DNA from: an uncultured Celeribacter sp.
Lineage (GTDB): Bacteria > Pseudomonadota > Alphaproteobacteria > Rhodobacterales > Rhodobacteraceae
Direction: 5' to 3'
NCBI GenBank assembly: GCA_938008015.1
Contig: CALLMA010000137.1
Location: 1-34,013, forward strand
Length of the DNA: 34,013 nucleotides
Part shown: positions 10,738 to 20,751 of the stretch, piece by piece
How positions within the stretch are numbered: position 1 is the stretch's first letter
How the letters are laid out: each line of letters starts with the position of its first letter
Program-made: the position numbers and the translations under genes
Notes under the pieces: generated by a model
What the model saw: only the letters and a program-made list of their open reading frames with translations
What the model was told of the DNA's origin: nothing
The model's database searches: none

Positions 10738-13283
10738 GCGACAATGATGGCAAAAAAACCCTAGGCATTCGGGGTGGAGCGGGTTCTGTTAAGCAGAGCT
10801 TTTCGCATGGACGAACAAAGAGTGTCGTAGTCGAGACAAAGCGCAAGCGAGTTGTTGTCCCGAAACCAAGCGCTGCAAAATCAGCGGCTACTGGCGGCGG
10901 CGCTAAAAAGTATCAAGGCGGTTCAAAAGCTGCTGGATCTAAGCGCCCAGGCGGCATTTCTGATGCTGAAATGGAACGCCGTATGAAGGCGCTTCAGGCT
11001 GCGAAAGCAGCAGAAGCGGCTGATAATGAGCGTCGTGCAGCTGAAGAAAAAGAGCGTGAAGAAGAGCGTAAGCGTCGTCGTGCTGAAATCGAAGAAAAAG
11101 CGCGCCTTGAAAAAGAACGCGAAGAGGCGCTTGTTGCTAAAAAAGAAGAAGCAGAGCGCAAAAAGCTTGCTGAAATAGAAGCAAAGAAAAAGGCTGACAA
11201 GCCAAAACCTGCTCCTAAGAAGGTAAAACCTGCTGCTGAAAATGACGATCCAGCTGCCGCTCAAGCAGCGCTTCAAAAGCAACAGCAAGATCGCCCAACA
11301 CGTTCGGCACAAGCGACACCTCGCAAGACGGATCGCGAACAAGAAAACCGCAATTCACGTGGCAAAGGTGGTGGCGATAGCCGTCGCTCTGGTAAGTTGA
11401 CCTTGAATCAAGCGCTCTCTGGTGGTGAAGGCGGACGTCAGCGTTCTGTTGCAGCTATGAAGCGTAAGCAAGAACGTCTGCGTCAAAAGGCGATGGGCGA
11501 AGATCAATCGCGCGAAAAAATTGTACGTGATGTTCAAGTGCCTGAAATGATCGTTGTTTCAGAGCTTGCAAACCGTATGGCGGAGCGCGTTGCAGATGTT
11601 GTGAAATCACTCATGAAAATGGGTATGATGGTCACGCAAAACCAATCTATTGATGCCGATACTGCTGAGCTGATTATCGAAGAATTTGGTCATAAAATTC
11701 TACGTGTATCTGATTCTGATGTTGAAGATGTGATCCAGACGATTGAGGATGATCCGAAGTCTCTTAAAGGGCGTCCGCCAGTCATCACGATCATGGGCCA
11801 CGTTGACCACGGTAAAACATCCTTGCTGGATGCGATTCGTAAGACATCTGTAACAACAGGTGAAGCGGGCGGTATCACGCAGCACATTGGTGCGTATCAG
11901 GTTAAAACTGATTCTGGGGCTGTCTTGTCTTTCTTAGATACGCCGGGTCACGCCGCTTTCACATCCATGCGTTCGCGTGGTGCTCAAGTGACGGATATCG
12001 TGATCTTGGTTGTTGCTGCTGACGATAGTGTCATGCCGCAAACAATCGAGGCGATTTCGCATGCGAAAGCCGCGGAAGTGCCAATGATCGTTGCGATCAA
12101 CAAATGTGATAAACCAGATGCAGATATCAACAAAGTGCGCGCTGAATTGCTTCAGCATGAAGTGATTGTTGAAGCCATGTCTGGCGACGTTCAAGATGTT
12201 GAAGTTTCAGCGAAAACAGGCGCTGGCCTTGATGAACTTCTTGAGGCGATTGCGCTTCAAGCAGAAATTCTTGAACTGAAGGCGAATCATGATCGTGTTG
12301 CTGAAGGCGCTGTGATTGAAGCTCAGCTCGATGTGGGCCGCGGTCCAGTCGCAACTGTGCTTGTTCAAAACGGGACGCTTAAAACGGGTGATATTTTTGT
12401 TGTTGGCGAGCAGTCGGGCAAGGTTCGCGCACTCATCAATGATAAAGGCGAGCGCGTGAAAGAAGCAGGGCCTTCTGTTCCTGTTGAGGTTCTTGGTCTG
12501 AATGGGACGCCAGAAGCGGGTGATGTGCTGAATGTTGTTGAAACAGAAGCGCAAGCGCGTGAAATCGCGGAATATCGTTTGCAAGCTGCAAAAGATAAAC
12601 GTGCAGCTGCTGGTGCTGCGACGACATTGGATCAGCTCTTAGCAAAAGCGAAAGCCGACCAAGATGTTGTTGAGCTTCCAATTTTGATGAAAGCAGATGT
12701 GCAAGGTTCGGCTGAAGCGATTATTCAAGCGGTTGAGAAAATCGGCAATGATGAAGTTCGCGTGCGCGTTCTGCACAGTGGCGTTGGTGCGATTACTGAA
12801 ACGGATGTTGGTCTTGCTGAAGCATCAGGTGCTCCAGTCATCGGCTTTAACGTTCGTGCGAATGCATCCGCGCGCAATTCTGCAAACCAAAAAGGCGTTG
12901 AGCTTCGTTACTACTCGGTCATTTATGATCTTGTGAATGATGTGAAAGCGGCGGCCTCTGGTCTCCTTTCTGCTGAAGTTCGTGAGAAATTCATCGGTTA
13001 CTCTGAAATCCGCGAAGTCTTCAAGGTTTCTAATGTGGGTAAAGTTGCAGGTTGCTTGGTCACCGAAGGCGTTGCACGTCGTTCTGCTGGTGTGCGCTTG
13101 CTGCGTGACAACGTTGTGATCCACGAAGGAACTTTGAAAACACTCAAGCGCTTTAAAGATGAAGTGAAAGAAGTGATTTCAGGCCAAGAATGCGGCATGG
13201 CGTTCGAAAAATATGATGATATCCGTCCTGGTGATGTTATCGAGATTTTTGAACGTGAAGAGATTGCACGTCAGCTCGACTAA
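10734..13283 (+). CDS. infB: translation initiation factor IF-2
   Basis: An 849-residue GTPase that brings fMet-tRNA to the 30S P site and promotes subunit joining. A long, charged, low-complexity N-terminal extension (about 1-260) is rich in Lys, Glu, Arg and Ala. The conserved IF2_N segment follows. The G domain shows G1 G-H-V-D-H-G-K-T-S at about 354-362, G3 D-T-P-G-H near 402, and G4 N-K-C-D near 456. Domains II to IV complete the protein, including the fMet-tRNA-binding C-terminal region with E-C-G-M-A-F. It is the last gene of the operon, followed directly by a strong terminator. The usual next genes rbfA and truB are not present. Confidence 0.97.
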
Positions 13284-13305
13284 GAGTTCATCACAAAATG
13301 AATTG

Positions 13306-13345
13306 AATTGCCCGCAAAGACTTTATCTTTCGCGGGCAATTTTTT
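13306..13345 (+). terminator. Rho-independent terminator after infB
   Basis: A 10-bp perfect stem (AATTGCCCGC 13306-13315; GCGGGCAATT 13332-13341) is extended by a weaker inner AAAG/CTTT pairing and followed by a run of T. It closes the rimP-infB operon. Confidence 0.92.
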
Positions 13346-13643
13346 ACCCAAACTCTTGAAGGCTGGCCTCGGTTTGGGAAAAATCAAATGGCGTGGGACG
13401 GTTTTAAGTGGTCTTATATTTTGCTGTGAGGAATAATTCTTCTAACTTTGTGTAATATTAGGCTTGAAAAACACCCTCAAAAAAAGTCATAAACAGGCCA
13501 AATCTTGCTGCTATGCTTTCATTTTGTTTTGATTTATTAAGGTAATGTGAAACGCGAATTTGTATAGTTGGTAAGAAGCAAGGGTTTTGGATGCGTTTGG
13601 CCGCATTTCTAAAGCTCAGCCACGAATTGAATGGGAAAATCAT
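13346..13643. other. non-coding gap between infB and coxB
   Basis: Beyond the infB terminator this stretch of about 300 bp is A+T-rich and holds no convincing gene. The coxB frame is open back to 13587, but those codons are not family-like. The coxB promoter presumably lies here; I could not pick a reliable -35/-10 pair. Confidence 0.5.
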
Positions 13644-14552
13644 ATGTTTTCTAAGTCCAAATTTTTTAGCCTTTTGGCACCTGCTTTGAGCTTGTTCGGA
13701 GCAAAAGCAGCTTTTGCGCAAAGCGCTTCTGATGAAATAGTAGGCGCGCCAGTCGATGGTGCAATTGGTTTTCAACCTGCTGTCACTGAATTGATGCAAG
13801 AGATCGTATGGCTTAACGGCTTTCTAACGATCCTTTGCTTTGTGATCGTTGCTTTCGTTGCAGCCCTTATGCTTTGGGTTATCATCCGCCATAATGCGAA
13901 AGCGAATAAAACACCTGCAACATTCTCTCACAACACGCCAATCGAAATTGCTTGGACATTGATCCCGATTCTAATTCTCGTTGTGATTGGCGCTTTCTCT
14001 CTACCAGTGCTCTGGAAGCAGCAAGAAATTCCTGATGGCGATGTTTATATCAAAGTGACAGGATACCAGTGGTATTGGGGTTATGAATATGTGGATGAAG
14101 GTTTCGCCTTCGATAGCTATATGATCGGTCAGCCTGCAACTGGTGGTAACTATATGCTAACAGAAGAAACTGAGCAGCAGCTTGTTGATGCAGGTTATTC
14201 AAGAGATGAATGGCTTTTGGCGACAGATACTCAGATTGTTGTGCCTGTAAATAAAACTATCGTTATGGGTGTCACAGGTGCTGATGTGATCCATTCTTGG
14301 ACAATCCCAGCCTTTGGCGTGAAGCAAGATGCGGTTCCAGGTCGTGTTGCAGAGCTTTGGTTCAAAGCTGAGCGTGAAGGCATTTACTTTGGCCAGTGTT
14401 CAGAGCTTTGCGGCAAGGATCACGCATATATGCCGATTACTGTGAAAGTCGTCAGCCAAGAAGAGTATGATGCTTGGTTGCTAGAAGCAAAAGAAGATTA
14501 TGCTTCTGTTGAAGTAGCACCTGCAGCAGTTCAAATCGCACTCGCTAACTAA
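13644..14552 (+). CDS. coxB: cytochrome c oxidase subunit II
   Basis: A 302-residue subunit carrying the CuA centre, which accepts electrons from cytochrome c on the periplasmic side. A signal peptide (about 1-26, ending A-F-A) is followed by two transmembrane helices near 50-75 and 95-115. The cupredoxin domain has the aromatic Y-Q-W-Y-W-G-Y stretch and CuA ligands His217 (V-I-H-S-W), Cys252, Cys256, His260 and Met263 in C-S-E-L-C-G-K-D-H-A-Y-M. All ligands are present. The start at 13644 was chosen for the signal peptide. A roughly 30-residue insert around Tyr-Met-Leu-Thr-Glu-Glu-Thr lies in the cupredoxin domain, as in other alphaproteobacteria. Subunit I normally follows directly, but here only 105 bp containing a hairpin separates it from ctaB. 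Confidence 0.96.
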   Translation: MFSKSKFFSLLAPALSLFGAKAAFAQSASDEIVGAPVDGAIGFQPAVTELMQEIVWLNGFLTILCFVIVAFVAALMLWVIIRHNAKANKTPATFSHNTPIEIAWTLIPILILVVIGAFSLPVLWKQQEIPDGDVYIKVTGYQWYWGYEYVDEGFAFDSYMIGQPATGGNYMLTEETEQQLVDAGYSRDEWLLATDTQIVVPVNKTIVMGVTGADVIHSWTIPAFGVKQDAVPGRVAELWFKAEREGIYFGQCSELCGKDHAYMPITVKVVSQEEYDAWLLEAKEDYASVEVAPAAVQIALAN

Positions 14553-14587
14553 GCGATAAAAACTGTCAAAAATTGATAACCATATTC

Positions 14588-14617
14588 AAAATAGGGAGTG
14601 ATTAAGCTCCCTATTTT
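14588..14617 (+). terminator. terminator-like hairpin between coxB and ctaB
   Basis: A perfect 11-bp inverted repeat (AAAATAGGGAG 14588-14598; CTCCCTATTTT 14607-14617) with an 8-base loop. The stem ends in four T but has no further T run. It lies where coxA would be expected, so coxB may be transcribed apart from ctaB. Confidence 0.75.
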
Positions 14618-14657
14618 CTGTATAAAGCATGCAGATTAAATAGACCTGTAAAGTACT

Positions 14658-15605
14658 ATGACTGATATATCCCAGATTGATGAACCAAAAGAAGCTGAGT
14701 TTAGCGATTATGTGAGCTTGTTAAAGCCTCGAGTGATGTCGCTTGTTGTCTTTACGGCTTTTGTCGGAGTTGTCGTTGCTCCTGGTGGCCTTGCAGGGCC
14801 AATTCATCCCTTCATTGCCTTCTTTGCAGTGTTATGCATTGCAATTGGTGGCGGCGCATCGGGTGCTTTGAATATGTGGTATGATGCGGATATTGATCGA
14901 ATCATGAAGCGCACAAAGGGCCGCCCCATTCCAACAGGAAAAGTCACGGCTGGTGAAGCATTATATGTTGGTTTGGCGCTTTCTTTCTTCTCTGTGATGA
15001 TGCTTGGTTTGGCGACGAACTGGCTCGCAGCCGGCCTGTTGGCCTTTACGATCTTCTTCTATGCGGTGATTTATACCATGTGGTTGAAGCGTTCGACGCC
15101 ACAAAATATCGTCATCGGTGGCGCTGCTGGGGCCTTTCCTCCAATGATTGGATGGGCTGCTGTAACGGGAGATGTGACGCTCACGTCAACGTTACTTTTC
15201 TTGTTGATTTTTATGTGGACGCCGCCGCATTTTTGGGCTTTGGCTTTATTCATGAATTCTGATTATGATGCAGCGAAAGTGCCAATGCTTACAGTCACAC
15301 ATGGAAAACGAACCACGCGTGTTCACATCCTTGTTTATACAGCTGTTTTAGCTCTTACAGCGCTTTGGGTCGCCTTCACGCCAATCGCGGGTTGGGCTTA
15401 TCTCATCGTGGCTGTCGTGCTGAATATATGGTTCATGCTTGGAGCCGTTCAGATCATTCGCCGCGACGAATCAGAAGCTGAAGCAGATGATTATGCTGTC
15501 GAAAGACGTTTTTTCAAATTATCGCTTTTGTACCTTTTTGCGCATTTCTTAGCGCTTCTTGTCGATAAAATACTGATAATATTCGGAATTGGAGGACCTC
15601 TGTAA
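14658..15605 (+). CDS. ctaB: haem O synthase (protohaem IX farnesyltransferase)
   Basis: A 315-residue UbiA-family integral membrane prenyltransferase. It adds a farnesyl group to haem B, giving haem O, the precursor of haem A used in aa3 oxidases. The prenyl-diphosphate/Mg motif N-M-W-Y-D-A-D-I-D-R-I-M-K-R-T-K-G-R-P begins near Asn72. A second conserved region, Y-T-M-W-L-K-R-S-T-P-Q-N-I-V-I-G-G-A-A-G-A-F-P-P, is at about 140-162. Eight to nine hydrophobic segments cover the rest. Length is normal. Its stop overlaps the start of the next small gene (TAATG at 15603-15607). The haem A synthase gene (ctaA) is not in the window. Confidence 0.96.
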   Translation: MTDISQIDEPKEAEFSDYVSLLKPRVMSLVVFTAFVGVVVAPGGLAGPIHPFIAFFAVLCIAIGGGASGALNMWYDADIDRIMKRTKGRPIPTGKVTAGEALYVGLALSFFSVMMLGLATNWLAAGLLAFTIFFYAVIYTMWLKRSTPQNIVIGGAAGAFPPMIGWAAVTGDVTLTSTLLFLLIFMWTPPHFWALALFMNSDYDAAKVPMLTVTHGKRTTRVHILVYTAVLALTALWVAFTPIAGWAYLIVAVVLNIWFMLGAVQIIRRDESEAEADDYAVERRFFKLSLLYLFAHFLALLVDKILIIFGIGGPL

Positions 15606-15841
15606 TGGCTATAACGCAACTCTCGGAACGCCACGAAACGCGCAAATCGCGCAATGTTGGTTTGGGTTTTTGTCTTGGTGGTTTTGTCGTGATGGTGCTT
15701 GTGCTGTCTATGATTAAAATTGCAGTTGAAATTCCAGCGCAACGTGCGGCGCAAGCAGAGCAGCGCGCTTTGGAAGCACAATCATCTTCAGGTAAGTTTA
15801 CACCTGCGCCGCGTATTCCTCCAAAAGAAGAGGTCAGATGA
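15605..15841 (+). CDS. small single-span membrane protein, CoxF-like
   Basis: A 78-residue protein with one transmembrane helix (about 20-42), a short basic N-terminus, and a C-terminal part rich in Gln, Ala and Glu ending in a Pro-rich tail. It sits between ctaB and ctaG with a one-base overlap on the ctaB side and four bases on the ctaG side. This is the place where many alphaproteobacteria have a small gene annotated CoxF. I recognise it by position, size and topology rather than by any catalytic motif; a role in oxidase assembly is inference. Confidence 0.75.
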   Translation: MAITQLSERHETRKSRNVGLGFCLGGFVVMVLVLSMIKIAVEIPAQRAAQAEQRALEAQSSSGKFTPAPRIPPKEEVR

Positions 15842-16398
15842 TGAAAAGCTTAAGAGCCAAATTCGCGGCGCTTTCGCCAACACAAAAAACAGTTGTTCAG
15901 CTGAGTAGCGTTGTATTAACTATGGGCGCTTTAGCATGGGCTTCGGTCCCGTTTTATACATGGTTTTGCAGAGTCACAGGATTCGGTGGAACACCAAGTG
16001 TCTCCACAGATGGATCTGATATTATCCTTGATGAGACTGTCACAGTCCGTTTTTTAGCGTCAAAAGACGCTGGCATGCCTTGGGAATTCAAGCCGGTTGA
16101 AAATAAAATGGACCTGCGCATCGGCGAAACAGGGCTTGCCTTTTATGAAGCGTATAATCCGACAGATCGTCCTATCGCTGGCAGTGCATCCTTCAATGTT
16201 GCCCCCTATGAAGCAGGCGGGTATTTCACGAAGATCGATTGCTTTTGCTTTGAAGAGCAAGTTTTGCAGCCAGGCGAACGCGTTTTAATGCCCGTCACCT
16301 TCTATGTTGATCCTGAGATTCGCGATGACATTGATTCTAAGCATGTAAATCGTATCACTTTAGGTTATACTTTTCATGAAATAGATTTGCCTTCATAA
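15838..16398 (+). CDS. ctaG: cytochrome c oxidase assembly protein CtaG (Cox11 family)
   Basis: A 186-residue Cox11-type copper chaperone. It delivers copper to the CuB site of subunit I from the periplasmic face. One N-terminal transmembrane helix (about 19-40, followed by V-P-F-Y-T-W-F-C-R-V-T-G-F-G-G-T) anchors an immunoglobulin-like domain. The copper motif K-I-D-C-F-C-F-E-E-Q is near residues 132-141 with both Cys present. L-Q-P-G-E-R-V-L-M-P-V-T-F-Y-V-D-P completes the signature. Two adjacent ATG codons (15838, 15841) are possible starts; the second has the better spacing from GAGG. It needs CoxA as target, which is not in this window. Confidence 0.95.
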   Translation: MMKSLRAKFAALSPTQKTVVQLSSVVLTMGALAWASVPFYTWFCRVTGFGGTPSVSTDGSDIILDETVTVRFLASKDAGMPWEFKPVENKMDLRIGETGLAFYEAYNPTDRPIAGSASFNVAPYEAGGYFTKIDCFCFEEQVLQPGERVLMPVTFYVDPEIRDDIDSKHVNRITLGYTFHEIDLPS

Positions 16399-16415
16399 TT
16401 TGATTAAAAACCAGA

Positions 16416-16444
16416 TTGGCAAAATCTTTAAACTAGATTATGTA
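16416..16444 (+). promoter_or_regulatory. weak promoter candidate for coxC
   Basis: TTGGCA (16416-16421), a 17-base spacer and TATGTA (16439-16444) lie in the 125-bp gap before coxC. A small hairpin (GATTTT 16469-16474; AAAATC 16481-16486) follows. The -10 is a poor match. Confidence 0.25.
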
Positions 16445-16523
16445 GCATAAATATAAACGCGATTGACTGATTTTGAGAGTAAAATCGCTAAGAAACAACA
16501 CAACCCGTAGGGAAATAGCTTCC

Positions 16524-17327
16524 ATGGCGCACGTAAAGAACCACGATTATCATATCCTACCGCCTTCATTGAAACCTCTTCTCAGCAGCATTGCAGCTTT
16601 TATTATGCTTTATGGCGCTGTGATGTGGATGGCAAAAGGCACTCCATTCATTTTCTTAATCGGGCTGGCTGGTGTTCTCTTTATGATGTGGACTTGGTGG
16701 GCTGAAGCGATCAAAGAAAGCAACATGGGCGATCATACGCCAGTTGTGCGCATTGGTCTGCGGTACGGCGTGATCATGTTCATCATGTCGGAAGTTATGT
16801 TCTTCGTGGCATGGTTCTGGGCCTTTTTCAAAACGACCATGTACCCAATGCATGAATATGCTGGCACTGAATATCAAGAGCCTTCAATCCATGCGATTGA
16901 TGCTTTCCACTTGCCTTTGATGAATACACTCTTGTTGCTCATCTCTGGTTGTTTTGTGACATGGGCACACCACGCACTTGTACATGGCAATATTAGAAAA
17001 GACATTGTTGCCGGTCTTGCGGGTGGTGTTCTCTTCGGTGTCGTATTTACATTATTTCAAGCTTACGAATATTATGAGCTGCTTGTACATGAAGGCTATA
17101 CATTCGGTGGCGATGTGTTCTTCGGCACATTCTTCATGGCAACAGGTTTCCATGGTTTCCACGTTCTTATCGGAACAATCTTTTTGCTTATCTGCCTTTT
17201 CCGTGCACGAGCAGGCGCTTTCACACCTGAGCAGCATGTTGGGTTTGAAGCAGCGGCATGGTACTGGCACTTCGTAGATGTTGTTTGGCTTTTCTTATTT
17301 GTTGCTGTCTACATCTGGGGGCAATAA
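16524..17327 (+). CDS. coxC: cytochrome c oxidase subunit III
   Basis: A 267-residue integral membrane subunit with about seven hydrophobic helices. It stabilises subunit I and has a role in proton uptake in aa3 oxidases. Family marks are the N-terminal [35 protein letters not shown], the W-A-H-H-A-L segment, [13 protein letters not shown], and the C-terminal [11 protein letters not shown]. The ATG at 16524 places the family N-terminus at residue 1; the open frame upstream (from 16473) adds 17 unlike residues. A terminator follows, so SURF1 is probably in a separate unit. Confidence 0.96.
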
Positions 17328-17374
17328 GCTCAGATCAAGCACTGATTGAATATCAGTACTCATGACAATAATAG

Positions 17375-17400
17375 AAAGGCGCTTCTTTGAGCGCCTTTTT
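17375..17400 (+). terminator. Rho-independent terminator after coxC
   Basis: Arms AAAGGCGCT (17375-17383) and AGCGCCTTT (17390-17398) with loop TCTTTG and a T run. A smaller ACTGAT/ATCAGT hairpin (17341-17357) precedes it. Confidence 0.88.
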
Positions 17401-17426
17401 GTATGACTAACGAATGAAAGTTTATT

Positions 17427-18116
17427 ATGGATCGTCGTTTTTGGCTCAGCGTCATCATCGCAGTTCTTGGACTGGTCATCTTGCTGAAATTAGGGTTTTG
17501 GCAATTATCGCGTATTCCGGAAAAAGAGACTGAAATACAAAAGATTGAAGCTTTTTTCGAGCAAGAACCTATCGAATTGCCTATGGTACCAGACTCTGAA
17601 AGCCAAGAATATCTGCCTGTCGTTGTGCGTGGTGAGATACTTGATGGTGAGATCAATGTCTTGGTGTCCACGCGCTCTCAGGGCGCAGGGTTCCGGATCA
17701 TCGCGCCATTTAGGCTTGAGGATGGAAGAGACGTGCTTCTCGATCGAGGCTTCATTCGCTCAGAGGATAAAGATAAGAAGCGCAATCTTGGGGCGGGTGA
17801 GGTGATTGGCAATTTGCATTGGCCCGATGAACGCGGCCCTTCCATTCCTGATGATGATATCGCGCTCAATGAATGGTATGCCCGCGATGTGGGCAAGATG
17901 GCCAAACATTTAGGCACTGAACCGATTTTAATCGTCGCAAAAACGACGACATCCGATCAAATTTTACCGCTGCCAGTGAGCAGTGATAATATACCCAATA
18001 ATCATCTCGCATATGCAATTCAGTGGTTTTTATTTGCTGGGATATGGTTTGGGATGACAAGCGTGCTGCTGTGGCGTATTAGGAGCGCGAATAGACAGAA
18101 AAGTGACGAAAAATGA
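17427..18116 (+). CDS. SURF1 family cytochrome oxidase biogenesis protein
   Basis: A 229-residue SURF1/Shy1 homologue, involved in haem A insertion into subunit I. It has the family topology: an N-terminal helix (about 5-23), a periplasmic domain, and a C-terminal helix (about 197-217). The start of the family, L-G-F-W-Q-L-S-R-I-P-E-K, is present, as is the end signature N-N-H-L-A-Y-A-I-Q-W-F-L-F-A. The central region has V-L-L-D-R-G-F-I-R, also typical. Its stop overlaps thrC (ATGA), so an oxidase assembly factor is coupled to threonine synthase. This is a recurring arrangement in this bacterial group. Confidence 0.93.
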   Translation: MDRRFWLSVIIAVLGLVILLKLGFWQLSRIPEKETEIQKIEAFFEQEPIELPMVPDSESQEYLPVVVRGEILDGEINVLVSTRSQGAGFRIIAPFRLEDGRDVLLDRGFIRSEDKDKKRNLGAGEVIGNLHWPDERGPSIPDDDIALNEWYARDVGKMAKHLGTEPILIVAKTTTSDQILPLPVSSDNIPNNHLAYAIQWFLFAGIWFGMTSVLLWRIRSANRQKSDEK

Positions 18117-19495
18117 AATATATTTCAACACGTGGCCAAGCGCCTGAACTCTCTTTTGAAGAAGCAATGCTCACAGGCCTTGCCTCAGATGGCGGCCTTT
18201 ATGTGCCTGAGACGATCCCAACGCTCACGCATGAAGAAATTGCGAGCTTAAATGGCCTTTCATATGAAGATATTGCCTTTAAAATAATGAAGCCTTTCAT
18301 TGGCGAGGCTTTCACCGATGATGAGTTCAAAGGCATTATCAAAAAAGCTTATGCGAATTTTGGCCATATTGCCCGCGCTCCTATGGTGCAAATTGGGGAT
18401 AATCATTTCCTGCTTGAGTTGTTTCATGGTCCAACACTTGCCTTCAAAGATTTCGCGATGCAGCTTATTGGGCAGCTTTTCCAAGCGTCTCTTTCGCGCT
18501 CTGGTAAACGTGTGACGATTGTTGGTGCCACATCTGGAGATACAGGATCAGCGGCTATTGAAGCTTTCAAAGGCTTGAATAATGTGGATGTATTTATCCT
18601 TTTCCCTCATGGGCGCGTCTCGGATGTGCAGCGTCGTCAGATGAGTACACCAAGTGAATCCAATGTTCATGCGCTAGCTGTACAAGGTGATTTTGATGAT
18701 TGCCAAGGCGCATTGAAAGATATGTTTGCAGATATTGAATTCCGTGATCATGTGAAACTCGCAGCGGTGAACTCAATCAACTGGGCACGCGTCTTGGCGC
18801 AGGTTGTATATTACTTCTCATCTGCTGTTGCGCTTGGCGCTCCTAATCGCAAAGTCTCATTTACAGTGCCTACAGGCAATTTTGGTGATATTTTTGCTGG
18901 TTATATTGCCAAAAAAATGGGTCTGCCGATTGATCGCCTTGTGATCGCGACCAATCAAAACGACATTTTGCACCGTACCATGGCGACAGGCGCCTATACG
19001 AAACAAGGGGTTGTGCCTTCAATTTCGCCATCGATGGATATCCAGATTTCATCCAATTTCGAACGGGCGCTATTTGATGCTTATGGGCGAGATGGGTCTG
19101 TGATATCTGATTTGATGGCTGATTTGAAATCGGGCGAATTCAAAGTATCCGATGAAGCTATGCAGGCGTTAAATACGCATTTCTCTTCTGGGCGCGCGAG
19201 CGAAGAAGAAACATCTCAAACAATCGCTGCATATTATGAGAAGACGGGTGAAGTTCTTTGTCCGCATTCTGCGATTGGTGTGAAAGTTGCGGATGAAAAT
19301 ATTCAAGAGACTGTTATGGTGACTTTGGCCACAGCTCACCCAGCCAAATTCCCTGCAGCTGTGCAAGAGGCCTGTGGTATCCATCCTGATTTGCCGGCAC
19401 GCATGAGCGATCTCTTTGATCGTGAGGAGCGCTTTTCGGTTGTTGCAAATGACTTAGAAGGCTTGAAATCCCTTATCAAGGAGCGTTTGGCGTGA
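18113..19495 (+). CDS. thrC: threonine synthase
   Basis: A 460-residue PLP enzyme converting O-phosphohomoserine to threonine. The N-terminus Y-I-S-T-R-G and D-G-G-L-Y-V-P-E are family marks. The PLP lysine lies in G-P-T-L-A-F-K-D-F-A (Lys112). A-T-S-G-D-T-G-S-A-A, the phosphate-binding Ser/Thr-Gly cluster, and P-T-G-N-F-G-D-I-F-A-G-Y follow. The length matches the longer, fungal/proteobacterial type II synthases. It overlaps SURF1 upstream (ATGA) and the M16 peptidase downstream (GTGA). Confidence 0.97.
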   Translation: MKYISTRGQAPELSFEEAMLTGLASDGGLYVPETIPTLTHEEIASLNGLSYEDIAFKIMKPFIGEAFTDDEFKGIIKKAYANFGHIARAPMVQIGDNHFLLELFHGPTLAFKDFAMQLIGQLFQASLSRSGKRVTIVGATSGDTGSAAIEAFKGLNNVDVFILFPHGRVSDVQRRQMSTPSESNVHALAVQGDFDDCQGALKDMFADIEFRDHVKLAAVNSINWARVLAQVVYYFSSAVALGAPNRKVSFTVPTGNFGDIFAGYIAKKMGLPIDRLVIATNQNDILHRTMATGAYTKQGVVPSISPSMDIQISSNFERALFDAYGRDGSVISDLMADLKSGEFKVSDEAMQALNTHFSSGRASEEETSQTIAAYYEKTGEVLCPHSAIGVKVADENIQETVMVTLATAHPAKFPAAVQEACGIHPDLPARMSDLFDREERFSVVANDLEGLKSLIKERLA

Positions 19496-20751
19496 GCGTA
19501 AAATTACATACACTATCAAACGGCTTTCGCATTGTCACAGAACGTCAAGATACGCTTGAAAGCGCTGCAATTGGCGTTTGGATTATGGCGGGGGCGCGTC
19601 ATGAGCGTGTTGAACAAAATGGCATCGCGCATTTTCTTGAGCATATGGCGTTTAAGGGGACTGAAAAGCGCAGCTCTTTAGAAATCGCTCAAGCTCTTGA
19701 GAATGTTGGCGGTTATCTGAATGCTTATACATCGCGAGAAGCAACGGCATATTATGCGCGTGTCTTGAAAGAAGATGTGTCTCTAGCCTTGGATGTTTTG
19801 GGGGATATTGTCTTAAATCCTGTCTTTGATCCAAAAGAGATTGAAACAGAGCGGGGTGTGATTTTATCTGAAATCGGACAAGCGCAAGATACGCCTGATG
19901 ATGTGATTTTTGATTGGCTGCAAGAAGTTAGCTATCCAGAGCAAGCTTTGGGGCGTACAATTTTAGGGCCGGCTGAGCGTGTGAAATCCTTCTCGCGAGA
20001 AGATCTTTCTGGCTTTGTAAAAGAGCAGTATAGCCCAGATCGCATGGTGCTTTCTGCAGCTGGTAATATTGATCATGATCAACTCATCAAAGAAGCTGAA
20101 GCGCTCTTTGGTCACTTGAAGCCAAGCGGCGAGAGAATTGTTGAGCCTGCTCAATTTAAAGGCGGTGAATACCGCAAGGTCAAAGATCTTGAACAAGCGC
20201 ATTTTGCATTGTCTTTTGAAGGGCCGGGATACCGCGACGAGGATATCTACATTGCCCAAACCGCGACAACGGCTCTGGGTGGCGGCATGTCATCGCGCCT
20301 TTTCCAAGAGATTAGGGAAAAGCATGGGCTGTGTTATACGATCTATGCGCAATCTGTGGCCTATGGCGATGCGGGGACGACAACGATTTATGCCGGTACA
20401 TCTGGCGATGATATTGCGGCGCTATCAGAATTAACATTTGATGAAATCGCCCGTTCTGCGGATCTGATGCAAAAGGCTGAAGTTGACCGTGCTAGAGCTC
20501 AAATCAAAGCGGGTATGTTGATGGGGCTTGAAAGCCCGTCTTCGCGTGCTGAGCGCAATGCGCGCATGATTGGTATTTGGGGGCGTGTGCCGGATCTTTC
20601 TGAGACTGTTGGCAAAATCGATGCTGTCAGCCTAGAAAACGTGCAAAACTTCCTCTCTCATCTGCAGCAAGCGAAAGTATCCCTTGCGCTTTATGGCCCT
20701 GTGAAAGAGGCGCCTGAGCTCGCAGCGCTGCAAGCAAGATTGTCTGCTTAA
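19492..20751 (+). CDS. M16 family zinc metallopeptidase (mitochondrial processing peptidase-like)
   Basis: A 419-residue pitrilysin-superfamily peptidase. The inverted zinc motif H-F-L-E-H is at His47-Glu50-His51, in the sequence A-H-F-L-E-H-M-A-F-K-G-T. A downstream acidic ligand region (E-T-E-R-G-V-I-L-S-E-I) sits near residues 112-122. The C-terminal half has the second fold with G-P-G-Y and G-G-G-M-S-S-R-L-F-Q-E-I-R-E-K-H-G-L-C-Y. The family is the bacterial relative of the beta subunit of mitochondrial processing peptidase. No signal peptide is visible, suggesting a cytoplasmic role. It begins with GTG inside the thrC stop. The natural substrate is not established. Confidence 0.94.
   Translation: MSVKLHTLSNGFRIVTERQDTLESAAIGVWIMAGARHERVEQNGIAHFLEHMAFKGTEKRSSLEIAQALENVGGYLNAYTSREATAYYARVLKEDVSLALDVLGDIVLNPVFDPKEIETERGVILSEIGQAQDTPDDVIFDWLQEVSYPEQALGRTILGPAERVKSFSREDLSGFVKEQYSPDRMVLSAAGNIDHDQLIKEAEALFGHLKPSGERIVEPAQFKGGEYRKVKDLEQAHFALSFEGPGYRDEDIYIAQTATTALGGGMSSRLFQEIREKHGLCYTIYAQSVAYGDAGTTTIYAGTSGDDIAALSELTFDEIARSADLMQKAEVDRARAQIKAGMLMGLESPSSRAERNARMIGIWGRVPDLSETVGKIDAVSLENVQNFLSHLQQAKVSLALYGPVKEAPELAALQARLSA

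Follow-up and report, generated by a model that had tools for sequence, protein, structure and literature searches.

We analyzed a cytochrome c oxidase gene cluster carried by a 34,013-nucleotide stretch of DNA (the window) from an uncultured Celeribacter sp. (assembly GCA_938008015.1, contig CALLMA010000137.1), in which an earlier note had reported that the subunit I gene, coxA, is missing between coxB and ctaB. All features given below for the window lie on the forward strand. The cluster starts with coxB (ctaC), which codes for subunit II (positions 13644 to 14552; 190.6 bits on TIGR02866, cut-off of 147.7, with matches to PF00116 and PF02790) and has a product of 302 amino acids counted from the ATG at 13644, the TTG at 13587 being likewise open. 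Then come ctaB, for heme O synthase (14658 to 15605; TIGR01473, 338.6 bits, cut-off of 210.3); a small open reading frame (ORF) of 78 amino acids in the CoxF position (15605 to 15841); ctaG, for a Cox11-type copper chaperone (15838 to 16398; NF003465, 212.2 bits, cut-off of 162); coxC (ctaE), for subunit III (16524 to 17327; PF00510, 260.9 bits); and surf1 (17427 to 18116; PF02104, 124.7 bits). The full order is infB, coxB-ctaB-ORF-ctaG-coxC-surf1, followed by thrC and an M16 peptidase gene, both named from their sequences. The succession of the subunit II gene, ctaB, ctaG, the subunit III gene, and surf1 is that of the ctaCBGE type and was the same in the relatives.

The stop of coxB (14552) and the start of ctaB (14658) leave a gap of exactly 105 bp (14553 to 14657), too small for coxA, so that the canonical coxB-coxA-ctaB arrangement is absent here. 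This gap contains a perfect hairpin with an 11-bp stem, and junction and hairpin thus stand as first described; the naming of ctaG, coxC, and SURF1 as neighbors was likewise borne out by the profile matches. A profile search of the whole genome found no coxA in the window and a single COX1 match (PF00115) on another contig (C65:17750-19165), an intact open frame of 568 amino acids (506 bits) that is 86 to 90% identical to the coxA of 19 genus mates. As the coxB of the window is the only COX2 match of the genome, there is no coxB on contig C65. The genome encodes each of subunits I, II, and III, at two places, with an intact but unlinked subunit I gene, as in the split ctaCBGE type. A loss of subunit I was rejected. 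DNA from 14400 to 14800, searched against its own genome for a second copy or remnant, matched only itself.

COX1 and COX2 searches were run over 61 genomes, the window's own included, of which 57 matched each query. For 36 other members of the family (19 genus mates and 17 others), the surroundings of coxB and those of coxA were both fetched. To these we added the 80 loci closest in ctaB (the best 80 of at least 585 candidates), 8 of which were short (3.7 to 9.6 kb); the two sets overlap, with at least one genome in both (L093, equal to G008). In all 116 family loci, coxB adjoins ctaB as it does in the window, and the stretch contains no match to coxA. No coxA match was found in the 12 to 14 kb around coxB in any of the 36 genomes, nor a coxB match in any of their 36 coxA stretches (5 to 13 kb), and the gap up to the ctaB match in the 19 congeners, 100 to 188 nucleotides (nt), brackets the 105 bp of the window. 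In single-contig genomes, the two genes are far apart (positions 3,383,820 and 3,094,791 in G005; 790,694 and 2,606,776 in G017). These 80 ctaB-picked loci, at 63 to 73% identity in ctaB, place the window within the Rhodobacterales; most of their titles name the Rhodobacteraceae, the Rhodobacterales, or genera of this group, among them Pacificibacter, Pseudooceanicola, and Roseovarius, and a few are broader.

A wider sample covered 149 genomes of the order, of which 148 matched each of the two queries and 145 had both genes among the matches listed (including the window's own genome and two of the 36, G025 and G029). Among these listed matches, coxA and coxB were within 10 kb of each other in none of the 145 genomes; both genes were on one contig in 58 of them, the nearest pair being 15.9 kb apart.

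The situation outside the family was different. Among the 24 genomes that represent other families of this class, four (G038, G053, G057, and G059) matched neither query at threshold, and the remaining 20 were fetched; one of them (G039), in which coxB sits at the edge of a contig and the stretch shows no coxA, was set aside. In all 19 testable loci, coxA was linked to coxB, within about 1 kb. In 18 of the 19, it came after coxB without an intervening cox gene (in L190, coxC lies between). In 15, ctaB was downstream of coxA; the stretches of the other 4 gave no ctaB, and that of L177 is cut by a contig end. The order coxB-coxA-ctaB, which the earlier note had given as usual, holds for most of the other families sampled but not for this one. 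From these counts, rather than from a tree, we infer as the simplest reading a single separation of coxA at or before the base of the family, and one such ancestral event would account for all of its members.

Given that the family relatives examined all share the separation, the cluster is almost certainly a split aa3 cytochrome c oxidase locus of the kind ordinary in the Rhodobacterales and not an anomaly. Directly observed are the order of the genes, an intact coxA on a different contig, and the recurrence of this order in all family relatives that were fetched. The proposal that coxA had moved elsewhere was right in effect, but its absence from the gap is not striking: the comparison across relatives gave the outcome that the earlier note had named as refuting it, with coxA absent from the stretch in 116 of 116 loci and, among the matches listed, unlinked in 145 of 145 genomes by the 10-kb measure, and the separation is in print for Paracoccus (PMC5249081). 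Several points weigh against this interpretation. In the order-wide sample, 87 of the 145 genomes have the two genes on different contigs, with contig ends unchecked; the count covers the distance between coxA and coxB, not the adjacency of coxB and ctaB; COX1 matches were counted at an E value of ≤1e-130 and not typed individually as aa3; and all its genomes belong to one family, so the age of the split relative to the family is not datable from it. Along similar lines, the coxA on C65 scored 668.2 bits on TIGR02891, slightly under the cut-off of 670.75, and its own genome is available as a draft in 137 contigs, 85.7% complete.

Two other explanations of the junction were rejected. That the assembly dropped or misplaced a coxA originally in the gap, as the earlier note had suggested, has practically no chance of being right: the draft is fragmented, and no more than 0.3 kb separates coxA from a contig end, but the same junction recurs in relatives from many independent assemblies, single-contig genomes included, with congener gaps whose range takes in this one, which in effect refutes it. 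A recent relocation in this lineage only, with a scar left behind, would agree with the linkage of the two genes in all the other-family loci; it is just as negligible, as congeners share the arrangement, with none of the 36 family genomes having coxA at the site and none of the 145 genomes listed with both genes in the wider sample having them within 10 kb.

The split arrangement is already known in kind, long known and normal for the family. Paracoccus denitrificans carries the locus ctaC-ctaB-ctaG-ctaE together with surf1c, and its ctaDI and ctaDII genes are separate (PMC5249081 and PMC9145763); the former article describes strains with a ctaCBGE deletion and with ctaDI and ctaDII deleted separately. 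Our genome differs in that one subunit I gene was found, not two, and in that its cluster adjoins infB. Three Paracoccus loci of the ctaB-picked set (L115, L119, and L134) also have coxB adjoining ctaB, a likeness of gene order and not a base-level comparison. COX operon subtype b (Degli Esposti) is described in PMC4013037 and PMC6431628 as the type that Rhodobacterales usually have and as one widespread among alphaproteobacteria; it has the same genes as the window cluster but normally places ctaB between COX1 and ctaG, while the window cluster is without COX1. The sequences thus extend the textbook split cta organization of Paracoccus across the sampled family relatives, which is modest as a finding but cautions against taking a family-wide arrangement for a loss. 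A Rhodobacter sphaeroides coxII/coxIII operon was reportedly described by Cao et al. in 1992; to go by the title of that paper, it is an operon called after subunits II and III, with assembly genes alongside, and also comes from the Rhodobacterales, a resemblance at the level of the name and not base by base.

Judging from the genes present, the cluster would provide subunits II and III with the assembly factors CtaB, CtaG, and Surf1, and subunit I would come from coxA elsewhere; the products of both loci would be expected to come together in the membrane in the usual way, giving an enzyme that probably works. The intercistronic hairpin may tune the amount of coxB message retained in comparison with that of ctaB and the later genes.

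This hairpin (14588 to 14617), with an 8-nt loop and a stem that ends in TTTT, is a candidate attenuator or 3'-end-protecting structure. It is stronger than chance would give: an 11-bp stem was reached by only 1 of 3,000 dinucleotide shuffles of the gap, and the RNA fold of the gap had a z value of -3.9. Perfect stems of ≥9 bp (loops of 3 to 12 nt) were found at five places in the whole window, the gap hairpin among them, so it is not unique. Once its outer A-T pairs are trimmed, 6 of the next 8 nt are T, and by this T tail it looks more terminator-like than the hairpins of most relatives. Rfam at gathering thresholds gave no match in the window, and among the titles listed by literature searches there was none on a coxB-ctaB hairpin, which does not prove its absence. 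A second hairpin (17375 to 17398; 9-bp stem) lies between coxC and surf1 and has a T-rich tail after the same trimming.

We surveyed the family for perfect stems of ≥7 bp within 90 nt after each stop, counting identical sequences once and leaving out loci that lacked the gene or the full 90 nt or whose stops were uncertain. Such stems follow the structural genes often (coxB, 57/114; coxC, 87/107; coxA, 26/36) and the other genes rarely (ctaB, 0/113; ctaG, 0/108; surf1, 6/105; thrC, 2/103; M16, 7/101). The coxC count means that the second hairpin of the window has counterparts in most family relatives. Against 100 shuffles each, a p value of ≤0.05 was obtained in 51/114 cases for coxB, 75/107 for coxC, and 24/36 for coxA; with only 40 shuffles, the counts had been 50, 81, and 24, respectively. 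The tails differ, since the stems after coxB are followed by a T-poor tail in 52 of 57 cases and by a T-rich one in 2, while T-rich tails occur in 60/87 after coxC and 19/26 after coxA. The outgroup values were 2/20 for coxB, 6/18 for coxA, 1/15 for ctaB, 2/13 for ctaG, and 3/13 for coxC. As a control, other same-strand gaps of 60 to 200 nt in the fetched loci had such stems in 13/85 cases, and within this same ORF-called set, the figures were 2/11 for coxB, 5/10 for coxC, and 2/6 for coxA. This better-matched control weakens the hairpin pattern at the structural genes.

Two readings of the coxB-ctaB hairpin were weighed. It may, tentatively, be an element between the two genes that stabilizes mRNA or partly terminates transcription and would thereby raise the abundance of subunit II above that of the assembly factors, by analogy with the Rhodobacter puf operon, for which PMC6238624 offers a precedent of an intercistronic hairpin stabilizing the upstream message; the main text of that article contains no "cox." In the window, a hairpin is present between coxB and ctaB, whose joint transcript is putative. 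The greater frequency of stems after coxB, coxC, and coxA than after ctaB, ctaG, surf1, thrC, and M16 and their scarcity after coxB in the outgroup are consistent with such a role. However, what follows the assembly genes is often coding sequence or a short gap and hence no matched control, the ORF-called test sets 13/85 in other gaps against the small coxB, coxC, and coxA counts given above, a stem of ≥7 bp lies between coxB and ctaB in only 11 of 36 family-genome loci, coxA and coxC of the outgroup also carry stems, and the sequences are related rather than independent.

It is unlikely that the hairpin is a full terminator, ending a monocistronic coxB transcript and leaving ctaB and the following genes as a separate transcription unit. 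The T-rich tail after trimming speaks for this possibility, but a terminator scan of 13200 to 19600, a weak test that gave 8 sites versus 7.0 expected in shuffles, does not list 14588 to 14617, an equally weak promoter scan gave no promoter-like site inside the gap, and the relatives' stems after coxB mostly have T-poor tails, unlike those after coxC and coxA. A broader version of the puf analogy, that after coxA left the operon in the family ancestor, stem-loops came to follow coxB, coxC, and coxA but not the assembly genes, and that differential mRNA 3'-end protection or attenuation would set the stoichiometry of subunits versus assembly factors, appears improbable. We consider the hairpin pattern a lead only; if true, it would provide a route to testing how oxidase subunits and assembly factors keep their ratio.

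The real difference from congeners is the left border of the cluster, where infB adjoins coxB; infB is directly upstream, with 13284 to 13643 between the two genes. In all 18 genus mates fetched around infB, there was no coxB match in the 6.6 to 7.3 kb downstream, and infB was matched in none of the 116 family coxB loci (upstream room, measured for the 36 only, was at least 5.4 kb). Read gene by gene, the genus mate L193 has a Nudix gene and argJ after infB, with secA farther along, and the congener L021 has tldD upstream of coxB and divergent from it. In the window's own genome, argJ is on another contig (C57), and tldD was not found, an empty answer that in itself shows little. GC content is similar on the two sides (49% in infB; 45% in coxB and 47% in ctaB), with 38% in the gap, and does not decide the origin of the border, which is either a lineage rearrangement or a wrong (chimeric) join.

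At the other locus, contig C65 ends 269 bp after the coxA stop (L003:11359-11627), with a hairpin with a T-rich tail in between. No convincing frame was found in this DNA after coxA, of which the last stretch may, as a guess, be the end of a mobile element. One heme-copper oxidase subunit I gene was found in this genome versus 2 to 6 matches in the 19 genus mates, and the assembly has 2.0 Mb versus 3.1 to 5.0 Mb in these congeners; the single subunit I gene reflects either incompleteness or genome reduction. Among the relatives, a locus titled Enemella evansiae (L136), presumably an actinobacterial name, carries the same coxB-ctaB junction as G021 and is apparently mislabeled. Finally, the name "CoxF-like" given to the 78-amino-acid ORF is founded on its position: it has no Pfam match, its sole NCBIfam match (NF050115, 19.3 bits) is far under the cut-off of 60, and tblastn (E value of ≤1e-6) matched it in none of the 17 other family genomes and in 12 of the 19 genus mates.
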